From Glandiceps talaboti (taxonomy: Eukaryota > Hemichordata > Enteropneusta > Spengelidae), in NCBI RefSeq assembly GCF_964340395.1, contig NC_135556.1, positions 15,204,910 through 15,268,909 of the forward strand: DNA of 64,000 nt, in the 5' to 3' direction. This document shows, piece by piece, positions 2,160 through 57,511 of this stretch; the first letter of the stretch is position 1; each line of letters begins with the position of its first letter. Position numbers and translations under genes: made by a program. The notes under the pieces are model-generated. The model did not search any database and was not told the origin of the DNA. It saw only the letters and a program-made list of their open reading frames with translations.

Positions 2160-2439
2160 AATGTGCTCTAGAACATTACTCTCTGCAGTTCTTTCTTTAA
2201 ATTTCTTTGAAATTCATTGTTTGGTCAGTGTACATAACTATCCATATTTTGCACTCTGTCAATCATTTTACCGGACGCACCCGATTAATATTATGCACGC
2301 TAGAGGTCAAAATAACAAGAGAGATATGCATTTTTCTCAGCCAATCCTTTATTACTCAATTGTTTTTAATACATTGTACTTTAGTAAACATATCTTCTGA
2401 AGGATCATATAAATCGAATAGGAATCACTTCTTATAATC

Positions 2440-2554
<115 letters not shown>

Positions 2555-2677
2555 AACAGAAAAGAAGAGAAGAGAAACAGAAAGAGGGCTTAATCATGAG
2601 ATACATTTAAATCTTTAATATTAATCTAAAACTCATTCGGTTCTTAAATTTGCTTTAGTCATTGACATAAATGCTTG

Positions 2678-2683
2678 TTTATT
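2678..2683 (-). terminator. Possible polyadenylation signal of the subtilase gene
   Basis: AATAAA on the minus strand, 223 bp past the subtilase stop codon. A good splice donor (GTAAGC) follows the stop at about 2887, so the 3' untranslated region may be spliced and the true signal could lie elsewhere. Confidence 0.3.
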
Positions 2684-2905
2684 TAGTAGAGAAAAATCAA
2701 GTCAAGGACGTCAACAAATGACGGTGTACAAATCCAAGACAAATTCACCGATCGAACAGAAGTGAAAGACAGAGAGCTCATGATTAGAATAGTTTTCTTG
2801 TACATCACTGTCATGTAGCTATTGTCGTTATAACCGTGGGTGTACTGTGAACTTCTGTAATATTATTGGGGGAGGGAGAAATGCTTACCTTGCTGTATTA
2901 ATGAA

Positions 2906-5900
2906 TTAATCACAATACAAGAGAAGATTTGGAGAGCCAACACCAGGATTGCTAACAACTCCACTGGTACCGTCATTTAGGATTCTGTTTCTACAGCTAG
3001 AGTTGCTGGAACATTGTCCGGCACCAAGATGCACAGCGGCAATACCTAGGTGAACAAAGTGATTTCCTTTAGGTTTCAGACAGCAATTGAATAATGTATA
3101 AATGCCAAGCCCATGAGACGTTTCATGCTCTATAATATCACATTTTCAGTTTGCCTTCCCCTGTACTTGATAAATTGTACAATACAAGAATATAGCAATA
3201 TCGCCAAAACAATGGTGGATATTGTATATAATTGTTCGTAGCATCTTCACCACAAGATAATGATAATTGATAATGATGCGAGATACCAACTTTTCTGAGC
3301 TATCCTAGACTCTCCCACCTACCCTCGGGAGCATCGCTATTAACTGTTTTGTATGTACCAGTCTGGTGCTATCCATGCATCTTTTCAATGTGATTTAGGT
3401 GAAACGTTACTCACCACTCACGTGGGGACAGGCCATAGAAGTACCACTGATGGTGTTGTAGCAACTGTTGCATGTATGCCATGAGCTTCTTACGCTAGAA
3501 CCTGGAGCAAAGATATCGACACAATTTCCCCAGTTGGAGAAGGATGATCTTGCATCGGTGCTGGTTGTAGAACCGACAGTTAAAGCCTGTATGTAGGAGA
3601 ACACACAAGTCATTTACACAGTAGCAATTGCATTTGAGATTATATAGTTCAACGATGAAATACATGTTAAATGTTATGTATGGTAACTGTTGAATGAAAC
3701 ATGCCATTGGTGCACTATGTCCGTATGTCTATGTCTATGTCTATGTCTATGTATGTATGTATGTATGTATGTATGTATGTATGTATGTATGTATGTATGC
3801 ATGTACGCATGTATGCATGCATGCATGATTGTATGTATGTATGTATGTATGTATGTATGTATGTATGTATGTATGTATGTATGTATGCATGTATGTATGT
3901 ATGCAAGAATATAAAAACAAGCACTAACGTTAGAATGTCTAGCGGGAGAGACATTGCAGGCATTTTGATCTTCGTTGCCAGCAGCAACAGAAACAGTGTA
4001 TCCGGCATTGACAACTCTGGTAACAGCATCGTCGAGGGCTGAGTTAGCACCACCACCCAGGGACATGGATACAACACTTCTGCTTGCAGTGGCACCACGA
4101 GCAACAATGTCGTCAAGACCTTCATTACAGGGAATACAATGAGATATTGAATTTGAGTTTTATGGAACATAAGGTTGTGTCATTACAGATTGATGCAAAT
4201 TAAAATAGCCCATGTAAGTATATCCAAAAAGGAATTCAGTCTGTTGAAACTTTATACCGCTAAAAAATGTGGTACAAATGATGACAAACAACTTGTTACA
4301 ATGTCAATCATTTTTAGCGATTGTATAATTGTTGCTAATAATATAGGTGTAACTTAATGTGTGGATATGCCGTAATAATGCCGTACATCAGAAATGGTCA
4401 CCAATTCCTAAAGGATCACAGAATTAATACAATAAGTAAGTTTAGGTTTAGGCTTTTACACATCGTATGCTCTTTCAAGTGTTTGAATGAGAATATGCAT
4501 TTATTTTCCCCCTTATTTGTATTTCTATCATGCAAGGTAATTCGTACACCTTTAACACAGCACGCCATGAGGAAAAACAGAGGGGAATTTCGTTGTTGTG
4601 TTGCCGTTGTACGTGAACACAAACCATATTTCATCGTAAATATTAAGCTAAGGTTTTCAAGCATGCAACTGTCCAGTTTAGACAGGGTATGCAATAATTG
4701 AAGTGTGATTTAATACTCCGAATATCTGAATTGTAAAATATAACATGATATACGTACCGGAAATAATATTAGCATTTGTACCAGAGCCTACACAGTTCAA
4801 AACTCTTACACTGTACAAGCTGGAAGATACGGAAGTGCCGACAGATGAACCAGAGGTAGTACCTCCGCAATGAGTACCGTGACCATTACAATCCTCACCC
4901 TGTGGATAACAATAACACAATTTCCGTTTTTAGTGTCCTAAAGATAAACATGCCTCAGCTTCATTATTTGACTTCAACATCTGTAAAAACAGCGATGGTT
5001 TCACTTTTTCTTTGTTGCGGACTGTATTGGGTGCGTGTTTTCAATACTTTTAGCACCCAAAGGTCAGAGTTACAAATACAAATTTAATACTTTAACATTG
5101 TGATATTTACCGTAGTATAAACTTTAAACAATTTCCAACACAAACAGTTTTAGAAAGCTGTGTCTAAAAGCTTTCGTCCTTTCACTAAGGACTAACATTG
5201 TCATATCATATATATCTATGTTAACCATTGAACTTGTGAGTTATGCGCACATCTGTTTCGTTAGAAAATGTATTCCGTATGAAACTGAATAAGAAACTTA
5301 CGCCGTTGGATGGTTGGTAGTCATGGAAATAACTGGCTCTGTTCCCATATTCGTTATGGGAGTGACGAAGACCGGTATCAACGATGTATACATGAGATCC
5401 TGATCCACTTCCTGTTTTGAGAAGAAACAAAACATAAGCTTATTTGAAAAAAGAAGAAACATAACGGTGTGAGGAAATGCATTCTAAAGTATACATTGTT
5501 TACTTCAAGAATGTAGACATAGCTCATATCATCATCGAAATATTATGATAAATAATATAGCATTAAATTATAAAAACTTACCATATACGTTATATACGCC
5601 ATTGAGGGGCAGGAATCTTTGATCGGTACGGTCCATACCCCATTCAACATCGATGGACAAAAACATATCTTCCTCAACGTATTCAACACCGGGGAGGAAC
5701 ATAAGCTACAAAATGAGAAAAATTATCATTTTAACAGAATTATCTTTACGGTCCGGATGTGGATTTTATAGACCGGGGTTGTACGACGGAAGGGCTCCGA
5801 CACCATAAGCCGTAAGGGACCGGTCAGTTTCTCCAGCTTGGGGGGGGGGAGGCGGTGGATTCTTAAATCGGGCTGACAAAAAGTCACTGACCCCCCTATC

Positions 5901-7495
5901 TGTAAAACCCAAAACAGGCTGACCCCCCTATCACTTAAATCTAAAACATGATGACCCCCCCCCATATATGATATTCGCATGAGTGACAGGTATGTTTTGA
6001 TCGTGACTCAGTGTAGACTGCTTGACTGTCTTGCATCTACTTTATAAGATCCCGGGTTAGTACTATCATAATTATAATTATTGACTACACAGGGTAAATA
6101 TATTTGAAAAGGAGTTTAATAGCATCTTGACAGTGAAAGGTAGGGGGAAAGCTTGAGAAGGGAATATGTACAGCTGTCATGGGGGGTCCTAGGGGGTCTC
6201 CCCCTAGAAGCCCAAGAGGTTTTTAACTCTGAAAAAGTCAATTTTGAGACTATTCAGACATTTTTAGAAAATCATTTCCAAGCTTTACAAGACAGCACCA
6301 ACATGTAAAAAGCAACTACATAAGGTTGAAATATTTTTGAAATATAGTTTGATAGGATCTTGATAGTAAGAGGTAGGGGGGAAATCTTGAGACTGGGATG
6401 TGTACACCTCATGGGGGGGGGGGGTCCTAGGGGGTCTCCCCCTAGAAGCCCTGGAGGTTTTTTCCCTGAAAAGTCAATTTTGAGACTATTCAGACCCTTT
6501 CAGACAATAATTTCCAAGCCTTACAAGACAACACCAACATGTAAAAAACAACTACATAGGGTTAAAATACTTTTGAAATATACTTTGATAGCATCTTGAC
6601 AGTAAGAGGGGAAGAGCTTGAGACTGGCATATGTCCACCTCATGCGGGGGGTCTGAGGGGGTCTCCCTCTAGAAGCCCTGAAGGATTTTTACTCTTATAG
6701 CCAATATTTACGCTATTTAGACCCTTCAAGCAATAACTTAATCCATGCTTTACAAGACAGCAAGTATCAGAAACTATTCTTTATAACTTACACTAAAGGT
6801 TGAAATATGTTCTTAAAAAGTTAAATGACATCATTATATACATGTAGTAAAGGTCAGCACATCTAATGGTAGTATCATTGGTAGGGGAGATTTGGAGTTT
6901 AAGGCAATTTTAGACTATCTTGGCAAACATTTCACATCTTGAAAAGACAATATCATCTCAAATTAGAATAGGGTGAAAGTATTTAAGAAAAGTTTAATAC
7001 CATTATGACAGTAAAAAGGTTGTTGGTGCATGAGTGACCTCTGGGGGTGAGGAAGTCCTTGGGATTTTCCCCCTGGGAAATATGGAGTTTTTTGCTTGAG
7101 ATACTAAGGCAATGTTTAGGTTATTCATAACCTTTGAGGTAATATTTCCAAGCTTCGAAAAGCTAACCTATATGTATAGTTATGTTTGAACTAATAAGTA
7201 ATATTAAAGAATTCATGTAAGAAACAGGGACAAGAACAAATATTGACATGTACCACATTTCAGACAAGGCTATATGCCATTGTAGAAAGGATTTTTTTCT
7301 TCCATCACAATTTAAAACACAGTGACCCCCCTATCCACAATTTTGAAAACAGCATGACCCCCCCTACTGCCAATTTCAAAAACAGGGTGACCCCCCTACC
7401 AATCCACCGGCCCCCCTAGGCTGGAGAAACTGACCGGTCCCTAAGCTTACTAGCGAGGTTCGCAAAATTCAAATCCGGGTACGTCTTAAAGGGTT

Positions 7496-27600: not shown

Positions 27601-30600
27601 TTTGTGAATGTGAACTATTTTGCAAAGAGGCCATACAACTGTTCTTATTTAAATAATGGAATGTAATATTTGTCTCTCTGTATTTCCAACATGCTGTGCC
27701 AAGAGTTTTTAATGCAATTCATTTGTTTACTTCCCCTGTTTGTAACAGGATCCGTTCATCTATAGTCTGAAGTCAAAATTGTATTTGAATTGAGTGCTTC
27801 TGGAAAACATTCAATTTTTGAACCACTGGCAGCACAGTCACTTGTGAACCAATATTCCATTCCAGGACTGTGATATTGTGATATGTGGCGAATAAACTGA
27901 CACAAAGACCGATAATGGTACCGTTATTTCTTGAATATCGTAAATACCTATAATACGTCATAATTTTGTATTATGATCACCCTAGACCAGAATATCACAG
28001 TCCTGGAATGGAATATTAGTTCACAAGTGACTGTGACTGGCAGCCAGTAATCTTACCTTTTGCCATATGAATTTTTTGCTGTTAAACATATAACAGTCTC
28101 CAAGAGTTCGTATCTCTGTACTCCTTCCTCCAAATATCACAACACATTCACTCTCACCTAAGGTAATTTTACATGCAGAATGTCGCCATCTTGGCATGGG
28201 AACATCCCCAGAACACTGCAACTTGTTGCAGTCATAACACCACCCTTCAATTTCCTTGCTTAAACAGATCAATTCATTATTTTGTACTGGTTTTGTAGGT
28301 GATGTTCTTCCACCAAAGATTAAAAGCTTATTCTCTGATAGAGCTGTTACAGTATGAAAAAGTCTTGTGTCTGAAAAAAGATGAAAATGTTGAAAAGTTA
28401 TCTTTTTTATTAGAATGTGCCTCAAAATAAATTTCCTCGAAAATTAAAATTCTTCACAACTCTCCAAACTTTGCCAAATGCAAATTTGTTCCTGGTGGTC
28501 CTTTTTAAAATAATGAAATAATTTTCCGAGTTAACACAGTCAGTGGTCATATTCTTTCATTGTGTATTTTGTGAATGATTATATTTTATAAATTCAAATT
28601 CGTTATGTTTTCTGACCTCGTTACATGTGCAGTAGTACATTTTGTCATATTCCTAAAAAACCTTCTGAAATATTTATTTATTAATTACTAATTGTGTGCA
28701 TATACATAACCTATAACATGCGATATAATAATCAGAATATAGAGTGCACATTCTATACTAGTCCTGCTTGCATACGGAGTCATTCGGGACTCGATTCTGA
28801 CAACTGTCGCTCCCTTCTCCATGTCAGTAATCTAGACCTGTGCACTGTCTGCAAGCAGAACTAATTCTATACAGAATGCGTGCTACTCGCCGAGTCGAAC
28901 AGATAAATATATAATCTGATGTCATCTTGAGTTCTACTAACATACAACGCACACCATATTTTAATTCTATTTTATCAACAAAAATAGTATTAATTTGATA
29001 AATTACAAGAAAGTCAACATGACTGTTGGCAGGCAGTCTACATGCACAGCTTCACAGGCAAGTTTACCGATACAACACAACTCATAGTGTATTGAGAGTA
29101 TCTAGTCATTATATCTATCAACATATTTTCAAAAATCGACCCAGTTGCAGCTAGCCATGCTTTAACGAAGTTCTTGTGAAAAAACCACTCACCTATTTTA
29201 TTGTGTTTAGGCTGTACACAACAAAGTTGTTTTTTCTCGTTATCAAGAATCAAGACATCGTCAAGTCTCACATGTTTTCCGTCATCACTTATTTCTCCAA
29301 ATCCACCAGTTACTACCAAATCACCACTCTGAAGCTGACAGCATGAATGACCAAATCTTCTGATCAGTTGACAAGCATCAGTCCTCTGCCAAGAGAACTC
29401 AATCTCAGGATCAGTACTTGTGTTGACGTTATTAATGCTCTGCAGTTCAGTTAGCATAGTGTCAAATGACTTGGCCAAATCTCCACGAAATGAACATACA
29501 ATTACATAGTGAGAACATTTCAAATGCCATTCCTGTAAAATAACACAGTAAGAAATAACAACACAAATTATCTTTCATGGTGATAATCATATATAAATGA
29601 GACACCAATTTACATAACAATTGAAAGGGTGCAATGTTTCAAAATGTTACAACAAACAAGATTGCAACAAGCTGGTTCTCTTCATTAAACAAGGAAGTAG
29701 TAATGGAATTCTAAGGAAAGAGATTTCTCGTTTTTCTGTGATACATTTAGACTCTCAATAACCTATCTTCAATAAAAATCTACAATAAATCATTCATATA
29801 ATTCTATATTTGATAATCTTTGCCTTGCTTACATGTACCCTATTATACTTTTATGCTTGAAGATAGATGTTTGATTCACTATTTGGATCAAGTAGGCAAA
29901 CTTTTATGCTTTGATCCAATGGTCATTTTCTCTATAAGATTGTGCAATCTTTTGGAATTACTAGAACATTACCTCAAACTCATCAAAAGGTTCAAGAGTC
30001 TCAATTCTTTGTCTTTCATCAGGGGACAAATACCTATTGTAGAGTTCATTCATATCCATTGCCATGGAAACCTGCCATCCCTGTAGTAGATAAAATTATA
30101 CAGAGAATCAGATAATACTGTATGCATGCTAGTTTGATGTATGTATGTATGTATGTATGTATGTACATGTATGTACATACATACATACATACATGTATGT
30201 ATGTATGGATGCATGCATGCATGCATGGATGTACGTATGTATGTACATTGTTCTTACATACGCACGCATGCACACACAGACGTACATGTATGTATGTGTG
30301 TACGTACGTATGTTATCACTTGTAACTCATGTATTGTGTCACTACCCATTATTGCATATTTTATATAGATTTTATTTCTGACAAGTCCTTGTCAGTGGGC
30401 TCTCCAAACAAACAAACAAACAAAAGAATATGAAAGATGAATAAGGCTGTCCACATGACCAAGTAAATGTTAACTATATGTGCTTGTATTGAGCATGAAC
30501 TGGAATGAGATATTGTTGTCCCAGCATGCTTTGCAGAATGACCCACACACTACCTGTGTAAAACAAGTCAATGATATAGGGTGGTCTTACACACACTTCA

Positions 30601-50493: not shown

Positions 50494-50650
50494 AACAAAC
50501 AAACAAACATAACATCTCTTTGCGAAAGGTGAAAAATGACGGACTGGCACCATTCTTTGGCACATTGTTGAAAAAAATGCCAACCTCAATCAACTTTCCG
50601 TTCCGTGAAATAATGTGAAAGGCCCCCCTAAGAAACACATCCAAAAAGTA
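50104..50650. repeat. Local tandem duplication at the end of unit 2
   Basis: Segments near 50104-50390 and 50393-50650 are about 90% alike by eye, and each carries a (CA)n/(AAAC)n tract. Unit 3 has one copy (62027-62340), so the second arose after the unit duplicated. Confidence 0.8.
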
Positions 50651-50940
50651 GATGAGTCGGAACAGACTAAGGAAAGCATTTTAAATGAGCAAGGTGCTGT
50701 CACAATGGTATTTATATAGCCTCAAGTAATTAAGTCTATCAAAACTGTGAAAGAGTGGTGTCATTTCTTTCAAGGCTGCATTGCGCAAAGTAAAATCTCT
50801 GTTTCTCATAGATGTGTACAATGCAATGTAAGTCATCATATCTGTATGTCTAGGATCGCATCGTGTATAAAGCCATGCCAGAATTTCCAGTTGCTGTTTT
50901 TCAATACTAATGTTTGTGTAAACTCTTCAAATTCTACCTC

Positions 50941-53900
50941 CTAATTAATATGTTTTACTTTCAGTTTCTCTCTTATGTCGGTGAAGCATGCAGTATTTTC
51001 CAGTAGATTGAAATGATCTGGCCATGGCTCAGTGTGTAAACTGTTAATGTATGCCTTACATATTTCCTTTTCAGACAGCACACATGATTCCTGTGAGCTA
51101 GAGGTCCTGTTTTTCATGAATCTATCAATGTGATCTATACAACGCTTCCAACACCTGAAGTAAATATATGTGGGTTCTATCAAAATTAGTAGCCTGGGCA
51201 ACTGAAATACCGGTCTTCCCAAAATGGAAGAGACTGGCAAGGTCCTTCAGCCCAGCATCAAGGTATATTTTCATGAGAACAGCTTCAAAGTTTTTAGAAT
51301 ATGCCAGTCTCTAGGAAAAGGTAAAAGCCATGCCAAGTCTAAACCATACTTTTTCTTTAATTTCAGTAAGTAGTCATAAATTTTTCCATCACCAACTACA
51401 ACCAAATAGTTGATGTACTTCCCAACACCAAACTTGGTATATATTTTATTTAGAACATCTTTCATTGTTTCAACATTGTGTTACGGATGAGAGAATACAA
51501 CTTTCTAATATTCGCTAAGTTTTTATGTTTTGCGAGGTCACCGTGAACTCTGTCATGAATTAACACTTAGAACAAATGTTTGCATTGCGCGAATAGTATT
51601 CTTCTAAGATGACAACATTAAGTTATTAAAAGATCAACAGTGTCAAATAATGACTGATTACAGACAGTTGGAAGAACAATGACGTGATCACATTGTTTAG
51701 CTAGTTTTCATATTTGTCAATATCATTCGCATTGAATTAAGGCGACGGCAATACTTCCGTTTTAGTCATTTATGGTGCTGATTATTTTATCACCCAATCA
51801 TTTGAGTATTGTATATTTTACGTTTATAAGAATTTAATGTAATAATAAAATTATGGATTGAGTTTTTGGAAGGGACGGTCCGAGGTCAGGAGCTTCGATC
51901 TGCTCCGTGGCCACTTCCAAATGATCCAGGTTAACCATGAACATTGTGTGTAGTTTGAGCTAATTTCTTATAAGTCCAAGTTGATCCCGAGTACAGAGTG
52001 GAGAGAGAGAGAGAGTAACATGGAGGAGGGTTACCTTAACAGTAGAGGTAACCCCCCGATTCATTACAATTGTCAGCAGGTAGGTCAAGCACAGCAAGAT
52101 AAACTACATTTGAAACCTCTGTGTCCTCATTTGTAAATATTGCTAGCCTTTCTTTCAGACCCGGAATAAAGATGTCTGGATCTTCAATTTGTATTGCCCT
52201 TTTTTCAAGTGCATACAAAAAGCAGTCTGACTGTAATCTACTATAGTGTAATTTCTCAACAGGTGACGCTTTAAAATCCTCCAAAGACAGAAGTGAAGAA
52301 TTCACATGATGACCACTTGCATCATCCATACCTGACAAGGCACTGTAGTAGTTTTCTATCATTACAGGTGCAATGGTTCGACGGGAAGACATAAAGGTAC
52401 AGTGGTTTGTTACAGATGTGTATGTTGGGCACAGGACTTCACTGAATGAAACACTTACTTTACTTTGTAGGCTATTTTGTTGCCAGGAGGAAAGTGTACT
52501 TTCATCAGTAAGAAATGATCTTTGATCATAGTACAAACTTTCACTTAAAAGAAGTTGACACATTTCAGCATCTTCATGATGTGATAGTAATCATTTATTG
52601 GCTGGATAGTATCAGGAAAGAGAGCAGTACCATATCTACATATTTCAATATATTGACCTTGCTCTTCTTTGTATACAACAACAGGTAAAGCTATGCAGTA
52701 ACACAGAGCTAATATTTCGGGAACACCACAACCAGCGCCTTTTCTGATTTCCCCACATCTGTGATCAAAGTTAAGATATTTCTTTTGACAATTATCTTTC
52801 ATCAGAAAATACTCATATTTAGAGGCTTCAAGGAGTTCAATATGTTGTTTGTTTTGTTCTAAGCAATCAACAATTTCATTTCTGATTTTTACCATTACTC
52901 TGTCCTCTAAAGATTGTAGTTCAGGCAATACTGCTTTTCCGGTATCATCACGGGTACAATGTCTCAATGAGTAAATACTGTGAGCTGTGATTGCCCTACA
53001 AAGGGAACAATATGAAAGTATTCTCCAGCTGTAGACCGCAGTGACTGTCTGCGAAATGGCGCAAGGTCCTATAGTGAGCGTTAGTGAAGGCTTACTCTCT
53101 ACAGCTTGAATAGATGTGCCATTGAATCCTCTCCCTAGCTGACTCGACTTTACTGTGGCATAACAACTAAGCTTGTCTACATTGTCTACAGAGACTACAG
53201 TAAAACATTGATTACTAAGCTTTGGTCCTTCCTGCATTATTTACTCACATATACCAACTTTATACCGCTGGAGACTATCTTTAGAGGCGACAGCGCCAAA
53301 TCTGTTCAGAATTTTTAAACATTCAGACGATGAATTGCTGAATTTATCAACAACGTCAGCTAAAGCTATGTGTACTGGAAAGTGACACTCTGTATTGTAT
53401 GAATAAACAATACAAGACACAATGAACAACCTCTTCATGAGATGACTAATATGATAATTTTGTGTTTTGTCATTGATATTTTGAGTGTAACAGTCATTCC
53501 AATCAAATGTATCAATCTCCTTTTGATTAACATCACCTTGCTCAGTGTTGTTCAGTGTCAATTGAAAAATAAAATTCCAGAGGTAGGGGGTCAATGTCGT
53601 GTGAAATAAAGTCTTTGAAATTATTTGAAGTAATGTCAAACTCATCTTTTGGTTGTTTTTCATCAAGTTCTGTGCCATTTTAATAATTTTAGATTTAAGA
53701 TATTCACAACCAATACGTAGATATGAGGTAATATCATAACTTGGCATAGAAGCAATCAAAGAATTCTGAAGTACATTTAGAGAAAGAATTTCCTTTTCTA
53801 AACTATCAACTTTATTGTTGGCAGCATAGAGAGTGAAAAGAAAACAGTCTTCAAGAGATGGCCCACACCTCCTTAGTAAAGTCCCAAGCTTGTTGTACAT

Positions 53901-54646
53901 AGGGTTAGAATAGGAAATCAAACAATCACCAAATACACTCTGGAGTTTCACCATCAGCCATCTCTTTTTTTTCTCAACAAATCCAAGGTATCTGACCTTT
54001 CATACTTTTCAATGTTTTTTTAAAGTTCTTTTAAGTAAATACCGTACACAGAAGAATTGAAAAATTGCCCTATCCTCTTCAAATTCTCTGCATACAAATA
54101 AAATTGCACAGGTTATAGCATACTCCTCAATGGAATTAATGTCACTAAAAGTGACATTCCTGTAACTATCACATAGAGATCTCGTGTATTCTTTAGAAGC
54201 TGCCTTGACCCTGCTAACTTCAAATTCTGAACGAACAAACTTTGAAAAAGCTGTATTACAGGAGCCACAAATTAGACTTTCATTAGTAAGACATTTAACA
54301 TGTAGTTTAATGTGATGAACATATTTCAACATTAACTCCAGATCACTTATGTTGTATTTCTGCTCATTAGATTTTGTTCTGAAATTTGACAAAACATACT
54401 GAACCAAACTGTCATTTTCTCTGCGACACAAATGATAATACCTTGTTTTTGAGTAACAGCCACATACAATACATGGACCACATGATGTACCAAATCAGAA
54501 GACTTCTTGCCACCACCATACCCAGTCATGTTAATGGACCGAGTTGAGTGAACCTTGTGATCAATTGTTGTCCCAGACAGAAATGGTTTACCATCATAAA
54601 TCAACTTGTATGCACTGCTAGGAATGTCCACTTTCTCTAAAAACAA
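50941..54646 (-). pseudogene. Decayed ubiquitin-like/OTU-like/DUF6589-like composite
   Basis: Minus-strand open pieces follow one another in family order. A ubiquitin-like segment (AYKLIYDGKPFLSGTTIDHK, about 54480-54646) comes first, then a Cys-rich zinc-ribbon-like piece (CGPCIVCGC, about 54430-54480) and a long helical region (53241-53954). Next is VVSVDNVDKLSCYATV with RGFNGTSIQ (about 53100-53200). An OTU-like peptidase region follows (CSLCRAI to IALPVVVYKE, about 52600-53010), then YLAVLDLPADN. Last come YLVVVGDGKIYDYLLKLKK and WLLPFPRDWHILK (51300-51430) and the KIYLDAGLKDLA block near 51230. The DNVD, GDGK and GDWH-like motifs match the repeated DUF6589-type proteins of cnidarians and deuterostomes, probably transposon-derived. 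Several interruptions and at least one inserted element show that it is broken. It lies between units 2 and 3. Confidence 0.65.
51479..52020. mobile_element. Solo-LTR-like insertion in the DUF6589-like element
   Basis: This non-coding block splits the composite element between its ADN and ETMKDVL segments. It begins TGTTACGG and ends GAGTAACA, so it has TG...CA ends with a short terminal inverted repeat, as LTRs do. An AATAAA lies near 51844. A clear target duplication was not found and the right limit could extend to about 52042. Fossil; family not assigned. Confidence 0.35.
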
Positions 54647-54744
54647 AGTTGGTAAGGTCAGAAGAAGATATAGCAGATGAAGGAGATTCAGCGTGGCCAG
54701 GTCAAGCAGAAATTGGTATTCACAGGGAAAGCTTGTTTTATAGT

Positions 54745-56820: not shown

Positions 56821-56978
56821 GTATGTCTAAGATAGCAGAACAACTATACATGGATTCCAGAACAGACGAGAACTTAAATAGGCAAGCAATGTAAACGAAC
56901 TAGTTATATAAGTATAACCCAAAGGAAGAACAACTGGGGACGGATCAGACACCATATGTTGAATGCCGCTGTTTGCAC

Positions 56979-57391
56979 CACAGGGGCGTGTAATATTGCT
57001 TAGATTTCCGTTTTCTTAGGAAAATATCATACGAATCTTGCTGCTACAAATGTATCGATCTATAGTACGTATACTATAAATATCACAGGGGCGTGTAATA
57101 TTGCTTAGATTTCCGTTTTCTTAGGAAAATATCATACGAATCTTGCTGCTACAAATGTATCGATCTATAGTACGTATACTATAAATATCACAGGGGCGTG
57201 TAATATTGCTTAGATTTCCGTTTTCTTAGGAAAATATCATACGAATCTTGCTGCTACAAATGTATCGATCTATAGTACGTATACTATAAATATCTTTTCC
57301 TATACAGGTAGGAATATATATTCAAAAGGTTGTTATATTTAGTCTGTAGACCTGGAAAACAACAATCTATGCAATATTACACGCCCCTGTG
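56979..57391. mobile_element. hAT-type MITE (CACAGGGGCGTG family) with internal triplication
   Basis: Target duplication GTTTGCAC at 56971-56978 and 57392-57399, matching nTnnnnAn. The left part of the element, about 105 bp including its terminus, is repeated three times head-to-tail. The right end is single. The simple copy at 44645-44850 has one unit. Confidence 0.85.
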
Positions 57392-57511
57392 GTTTGCACT
57401 GCACTCACTGGCTTTCCTAGCCATGTGTGAACAACTTCCGGGTGTCCTGAACGAGCTTAGCATATTAATGACGTAGTCCGGGTGTTGTCGCGGTTACTCG
57501 CCACACATAAG

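Follow-up and report, generated by a model that had tools for sequence, protein, structure and literature searches.

The window analysed here, a stretch of 64,000 nucleotides from contig C9 of the Glandiceps talaboti genome, carries on the minus strand of positions 50650–54743 a large transposase gene in a copy that is truncated and frameshifted. We put at about 0.8 the probability that this copy is the decayed remnant, truncated twice, of an AcademX-like cut-and-paste DNA transposon, whose plan combines a ubiquitin-like (Ubl) domain with an OTU-like domain set within the DDE core. Membership in Academ is likely, judged by the reported description of that group. Frame pieces on the minus strand run in the order Ubl-like part, CGPC cysteines, DNVD, OTU-like stretch, GDGK and DWH block; the first-pass annotation had proposed a composite in this order on one strand, and all the pieces that it named do lie on the minus strand. 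The extent that it gave, 50941–54646, cuts off the first Ubl strands at its 54646 end.

The frameshifted Ubl domain occupies 54503–54742 (minus strand, as for every coding feature that follows) and ends in GYGGGKK; tblastn aligns residues 380–467 of the protein of L012, a relative on contig C16, with 54742–54494, and the frame piece reads YKLIYDGKPFLSG...NMTGYGGGKK. A Cys-rich, zinc-binding-like region starts at 54360–54485 (CGPCxxC...; compared with L012), and about 110 codons of it are gone near 54360 relative to L012. The remainder of the zinc region and the stretch preceding the catalytic core lie at 53241–54365, as placed by frame pieces and the L012 alignment. The first of the predicted catalytic Asp residues, in the DNVD motif of the DDE core, is encoded at 53184–53186 (alignment with L013, L012, L015, L018, L038 and L042). 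Between it and the second catalytic Asp is inserted the OTU-like domain (52593–53040; profile, motif alignment and structure model), whose nucleophile position is a Ser codon at 53004–53006, with about 20 nt deleted directly ahead of it compared with L012. A stretch in a different frame (52069–52590; 91% amino acid identity with L012) leads on to the second catalytic block, where the second Asp, in GDGK, falls at 51388–51390 by alignment with relatives and is closely followed by FPRDWH. The rest of the DUF6589-like core, at 50650–51478, is broken, as comparison with L012 reveals, and there the copy stops, before the DEAHE glutamate and without the FEN-like nuclease and CXC domain. Likeness to L012 is confined to positions 3221–7072 of that locus, and stops and frame changes are scattered through the coding region.

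Taken by themselves, the frame pieces of the window all score below the Pfam cut-offs (OTU, E 0.06 and 14.3 bits, where 23.3 are required), with no match to DUF6589 or to ubiquitin. Hence, the composite is proven through its relatives and not by the window itself.

Other features of the window are later or separate. At 51479–52068, a 590-bp solo-LTR-like insertion with TG...CA ends and a 4-bp ATTG duplication interrupts the already broken transposase frame. Three identical 105-bp tandem units inside 39-nt inverted arms (56977–57393) resemble a small non-autonomous transposon, and a Kelch-type exon is found at 29041–29574 on the minus strand (Kelch_4, 4.7e-5).

DNA and protein searches covered one genome (590 Mb, 47 contigs), the locus counts being lower bounds. 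L012 belongs to the window's subfamily, aligning with the window in three blocks at 89.7–95.2% identity, and has open frames of 1,860 and 566 codons. L013 (contig C7) consists of one open frame of 2,240 codons and, alone among the copies seen, holds the complete plan in one frame: a Ubl domain, a Cys-rich zinc region, a DDE core with an inserted OTU-like domain, a FEN/XPG-like nuclease and a LIN54-type CXC domain. Its motifs follow in the order Ubl, zinc region, DNID, OTU-like part, GDGK...GDWH, DEAHE, FEN-like acids and CXC tail. Broken relatives are L014, L015, L016/L017 and L018, with smaller pieces at L056–L060. Copies of the window's subfamily lie on at least C9, C15 and C16, and a further match on C19 covers its 3′ part; partial L013-type copies lie on C11 and C17. 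Relatives with long open frames thus keep Ubl and OTU-like parts in one protein, as had been suggested, and in this genome the composite is neither missing from such relatives nor a single-copy host gene. A scan of viral contigs for relatives found none.

OTU-less relatives are also present. L038–L041 are four 5.55-kb elements on four contigs, 99.2–99.9% identical to one another, with a 1,553-codon frame in every one; their >99% identity, open frames and 3-bp target site duplications (TSDs) mark a transposon family that has been active in this genome recently. L042 is a further OTU-less relative. In L015, the core frame continues into reverse-transcriptase-like sequence (2437–4767, minus strand), a later insertion labelled by eye.

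The core corresponds to Pfam DUF6589 (PF20231), which matches L013 with 45.3 bits (E 6.3e-12) and L012 with 44.8 bits (E 9.2e-12) against a cut-off of 27; L042 reached just 16.3 bits, under the cut-off, and L038 had no Pfam match of any kind. The putative DDE triad aligns across relatives as DNID, then GDGK/MDQP/LDMQ (five loci), then DEAHE/DQAHE/DHGIE (six loci). Moreover, the triad and the FEN-type acids of OTU-bearing loci align with those of OTU-less L038 and L042, where the first two Asp residues are separated by 176 and 179 residues, respectively, versus 395 in L013 and 407 in L012. Scanned against L038 and L042, the OTU and Ubl profiles gave a best E of only 0.2. The DDE reading rests on this three-acid alignment with OTU-less relatives and on Pfam, and not on the structure model. 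On this alignment, DNVD and GDGK, suggested earlier to be metal-binding residues, would supply the first and second acids of a DDE-like triad, and DEAHE would supply the third. The enzyme is less novel than had been supposed: its core is DUF6589, and the whole fits what the available part of the literature reports of AcademX (a nuclease and a 3–4-bp TSD).

The structure model covers L013 residues 812–2011 and was built from 15 alignment rows, some of them fragments aligned by chance well away from where they belong (mean pLDDT 56, pTM 0.44). Its top Foldseek targets are FEN1 (E 0.02, probability 0.99) and Xrn1 (probability 0.97); no target reached E 0.001, and aligned ranges were not given. 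An RNase H-like fold, for which structure prediction had been proposed as a test, was not confirmed by this model, RNase H-like targets having a probability of ∼0.1. The likeness to FEN nucleases extends to a series of acidic motifs in L013 (EGM, VFD, ER.RR, HEESD, DTD and GCD). A profile of the nuclease–CXC region matched LIN54 (3.3e-9) and, weakly, Exonuclease 1 (E 0.04), and a PDB search with the L013 nuclease part by itself gave no match. The Pfam TCR/CXC domain is recognized in L012 (26.1 bits, E 1e-5) and, just under the cut-off of 23.5, in L013 (22.9 bits, E 1.1e-4).

At least seven Ubl places were found, C22:5129702 being left out of the reading. A six-locus Ubl profile matched eS31 fusions in the PDB at ∼1e-7 to 1e-5, single-ubiquitin chains at ∼1e-7 to 1e-4 and a 79-residue ubiquitin at 9e-5. 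With single Ubl sequences, E values as low as 2e-22 against PDB ubiquitin chains sum repeated weak matches, single chains starting from ∼0.01. Pfam ubiquitin scored 5.7e-4 in the whole L013 protein and 2.6e-5 in the piece (24.3 bits, under the cut-off of 25.4), and the Pfam scan of the L012 Ubl gave no match. GxGG precedes the CGPC cysteines in all six aligned Ubl loci, the L013 domain ending in GxGGG-KK. Four of the six are 30–36% identical to L013, two of these (L012 and L058) being from one subfamily. An AlphaFold2 model of the Ubl domain (pLDDT 49, alignment of 2) was discarded.

A five-locus profile of the OTU-like domain matched yeast Otu2 with an E of 5.6e-5, over 48 profile columns that lie outside the active-site loop; Pfam OTU stayed under its cut-off in every single sequence scanned. 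In the low-confidence L013 model, the Foldseek ranks after FEN1 and Xrn1 are mostly OTU domains, namely DUBA/OTUD5, OTUD1 and OTUD3 (probabilities 0.91–0.97) and a viral OTU, the OTU targets together spanning E 0.13–0.47 and probabilities 0.66–0.97, with unrelated low-probability targets interspersed. Seven OTU loci were read, drawn from at least seven OTU places minus C15:19883003 and with L016 added from a separate search. The DGxC and GHYD positions are what we take to be the canonical OTU catalytic residues. The nucleophile is Ser in the window, L012 and L016 (one subfamily) and in L013 and L015, Ala in L018 and Cys only in L014. Hence, Cys is replaced in six of the seven loci, including the longest intact frame, L013, in which a GHF motif remains close to the His position. 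In L014, a broken relative, GDGRC is kept at 5500–5600 (minus strand) and GHYD occurs further on, in another frame. A tree built from 329 columns of six loci to order the loss of the Cys, in which the outgroup branch is long, gives L014 no confident ancestral place. By these residues, the OTU-like domain of most copies read appears to be a pseudo-deubiquitinase. The proposed deubiquitinase region is borne out as an OTU likeness, but an active enzyme is not supported for the window copy or for most of the relatives read. Self-processing by the OTU, also proposed, is unlikely in the copies that have lost the nucleophile Cys.

The terminal repeats and target duplications sought around full copies are present in the OTU-less elements. 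L038–L041 have the terminal inverted repeats (TIRs) TAGTGCAGCAG...CTGCTGCACTA, and all four are flanked by a 3-bp TSD (CAA, GTA, TAA and TTA), whereas the site of OTU-bearing L012 gives only a 2-bp overlap. The flanks of L012 (1884–2528 and 9757–10000 of the locus) are contiguous at five other places, at 95–99% identity, and overlap by 2 bp at all five of these repeat copies, which are without the 7.2-kb stretch. Both flanks also surround a second copy on C15. L017 stops resembling L012 at this 3′ boundary, with no flanking repeat there, and the C19 match extends 22 bp beyond it. Alternatively, the five short repeats may derive from the element by internal deletion and not be a separate repeat into which L012 inserted; since L017 stops at the same place without the repeat, insertion (nesting) of the 7.2-kb stretch is favoured. 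Either way, five copies of the flanking repeat without the stretch indicate that the window's subfamily has moved, in line with its multiple copies and with its first description as a mobile element. For the OTU-bearing family, these comparisons give putative ends with a 2-bp overlap, and its presumed 5′ border falls inside the L012 open frame. A TIR search around L012 and L013 returned short or AT-rich arms only, with nothing convincing at L013.

Coding sequence comparisons gave dN/dS of 0.24 for L013 versus L057 (438 codons, dS 1.1) and 0.35 for L012 versus L058 (149 codons). Three segments of the window compared with L012 gave 0.45, 0.64 and 1.45, as expected of a decayed copy.

These data bear on three other explanations. 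The OTU-like domain could be active now or have been so recently, protecting the transposase or freeing it from its N-terminal Ubl, with the Cys-less copies as side branches. The pairing of GDGRC with GHYD in L014 and the GG kept at the Ubl end in all six aligned loci both favour this, and VTD deubiquitinases encoded by transposons show activity in vitro according to the part of PMC9741609 that was available. Set against them are the Ser or Ala nucleophile of six of the seven loci, L013 among them, and the lack of a confident ancestral placing for L014; we regard an active OTU as unlikely, though a serious contender. It is improbable that L013 and related loci are host genes domesticated from a transposon, with the window holding a pseudogene of one. 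Such an origin would suit the single frame of L013, unique among the copies seen, its dN/dS of 0.24 with L057 and the unconvincing TIR search. However, active transposase lineages are also under purifying selection, partial L013-type copies occur on C11 and C17, and the window's subfamily is spread over C9, C15 and C16, being present or absent at a fixed place in the flanking repeat.

That the Ubl and OTU readings are chance likenesses in a divergent transposase seems very improbable indeed. The window pieces alone, under every Pfam cut-off, would permit it, but independent profile and structure matches in the relatives, and motifs conserved across loci, argue otherwise. The decayed AcademX-like transposon remains the favoured explanation of this coding region.

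For the intact protein of that transposon, we infer the chemistry and both ubiquitin-system roles, those of the Ubl and of the OTU, from domain content. The zinc and CXC domains would bind DNA, the DDE core would cut and join the ends, and the FEN-like nuclease would trim flaps. The nucleophile-less OTU would most likely be a ubiquitin- or Ubl-binding domain or a structural insertion, possibly docking on its own protein's Ubl. Still ending in GG, the Ubl may stay in place as the docking partner of the OTU or may be cut off by host deubiquitinases. The position of an OTU within a catalytic core, beside the protein's own Ubl and with its nucleophile often lost, points to binding or gating and not to plain proteolysis. 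A more elaborate version, in which a Ubl with a cleavable GG is released or conjugated and read by the dead OTU as a ubiquitin-gated switch or a shield from degradation, is speculative and in our estimate quite improbable; if it were true, cutting activity would be controlled by ubiquitin signalling.

The nuclease of AcademX transposons is of the XPG type. Kojima (2020) is reportedly a study of the Academ superfamily and its AcademX lineage. Academ elements are not known to carry a Ubl or an OTU. From the available part of one source, AcademX has a 3–4-bp TSD and a nuclease (PMC10045372). As far as that partial description goes, the DDD/E transposase with a nuclease and the 3-bp TSD of OTU-less L038–L041 are shared, whereas the N-terminal Ubl and the OTU insertion are particular to the elements described here. 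L013 and L012 likewise share the core of DUF6589 (PF20231), into which this branch has placed an OTU between the first and second Asp. Literature searches found no paper on DUF6589 and none combining Academ, OTU and transposon. The combination of a Ubl with an OTU inside the core did not appear in the papers searched, a set that did not extend to the Academ primary paper.

OTU and related domains are known from other mobile elements. In animal Ginger1 transposons, as described in the accessible part of the source, a Gypsy-integrase-like core has gained the OTU at its C-terminal end (PMC2836005); a DDE transposase and an OTU are thus common to both, but here the OTU sits inside another core and is accompanied by a Ubl. 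Helitrons carry OTU and VTD deubiquitinase domains, of which the VTDs are active and the transposon OTUs were untested in the portion seen of that study, which also reports inactive VTDs in related insect genes (PMC9741609). Deubiquitinase-like domains are therefore shared with Helitrons, which in that account are rolling-circle RepHel elements without a DDE core. The ubiquitin–ribosomal fusions eS31 and eL40 also join a Ubl ending in GG to an extension, and the profile match passes the GG in eS31; here the extension is a transposase, with no ribosomal protein found after the Ubl. A part for the ubiquitin system in transposition has been proposed in the available portions of two of these sources (PMC2836005; PMC9741609), and the transposase described here offers a concrete system in which that role could be tested with isolated domains.
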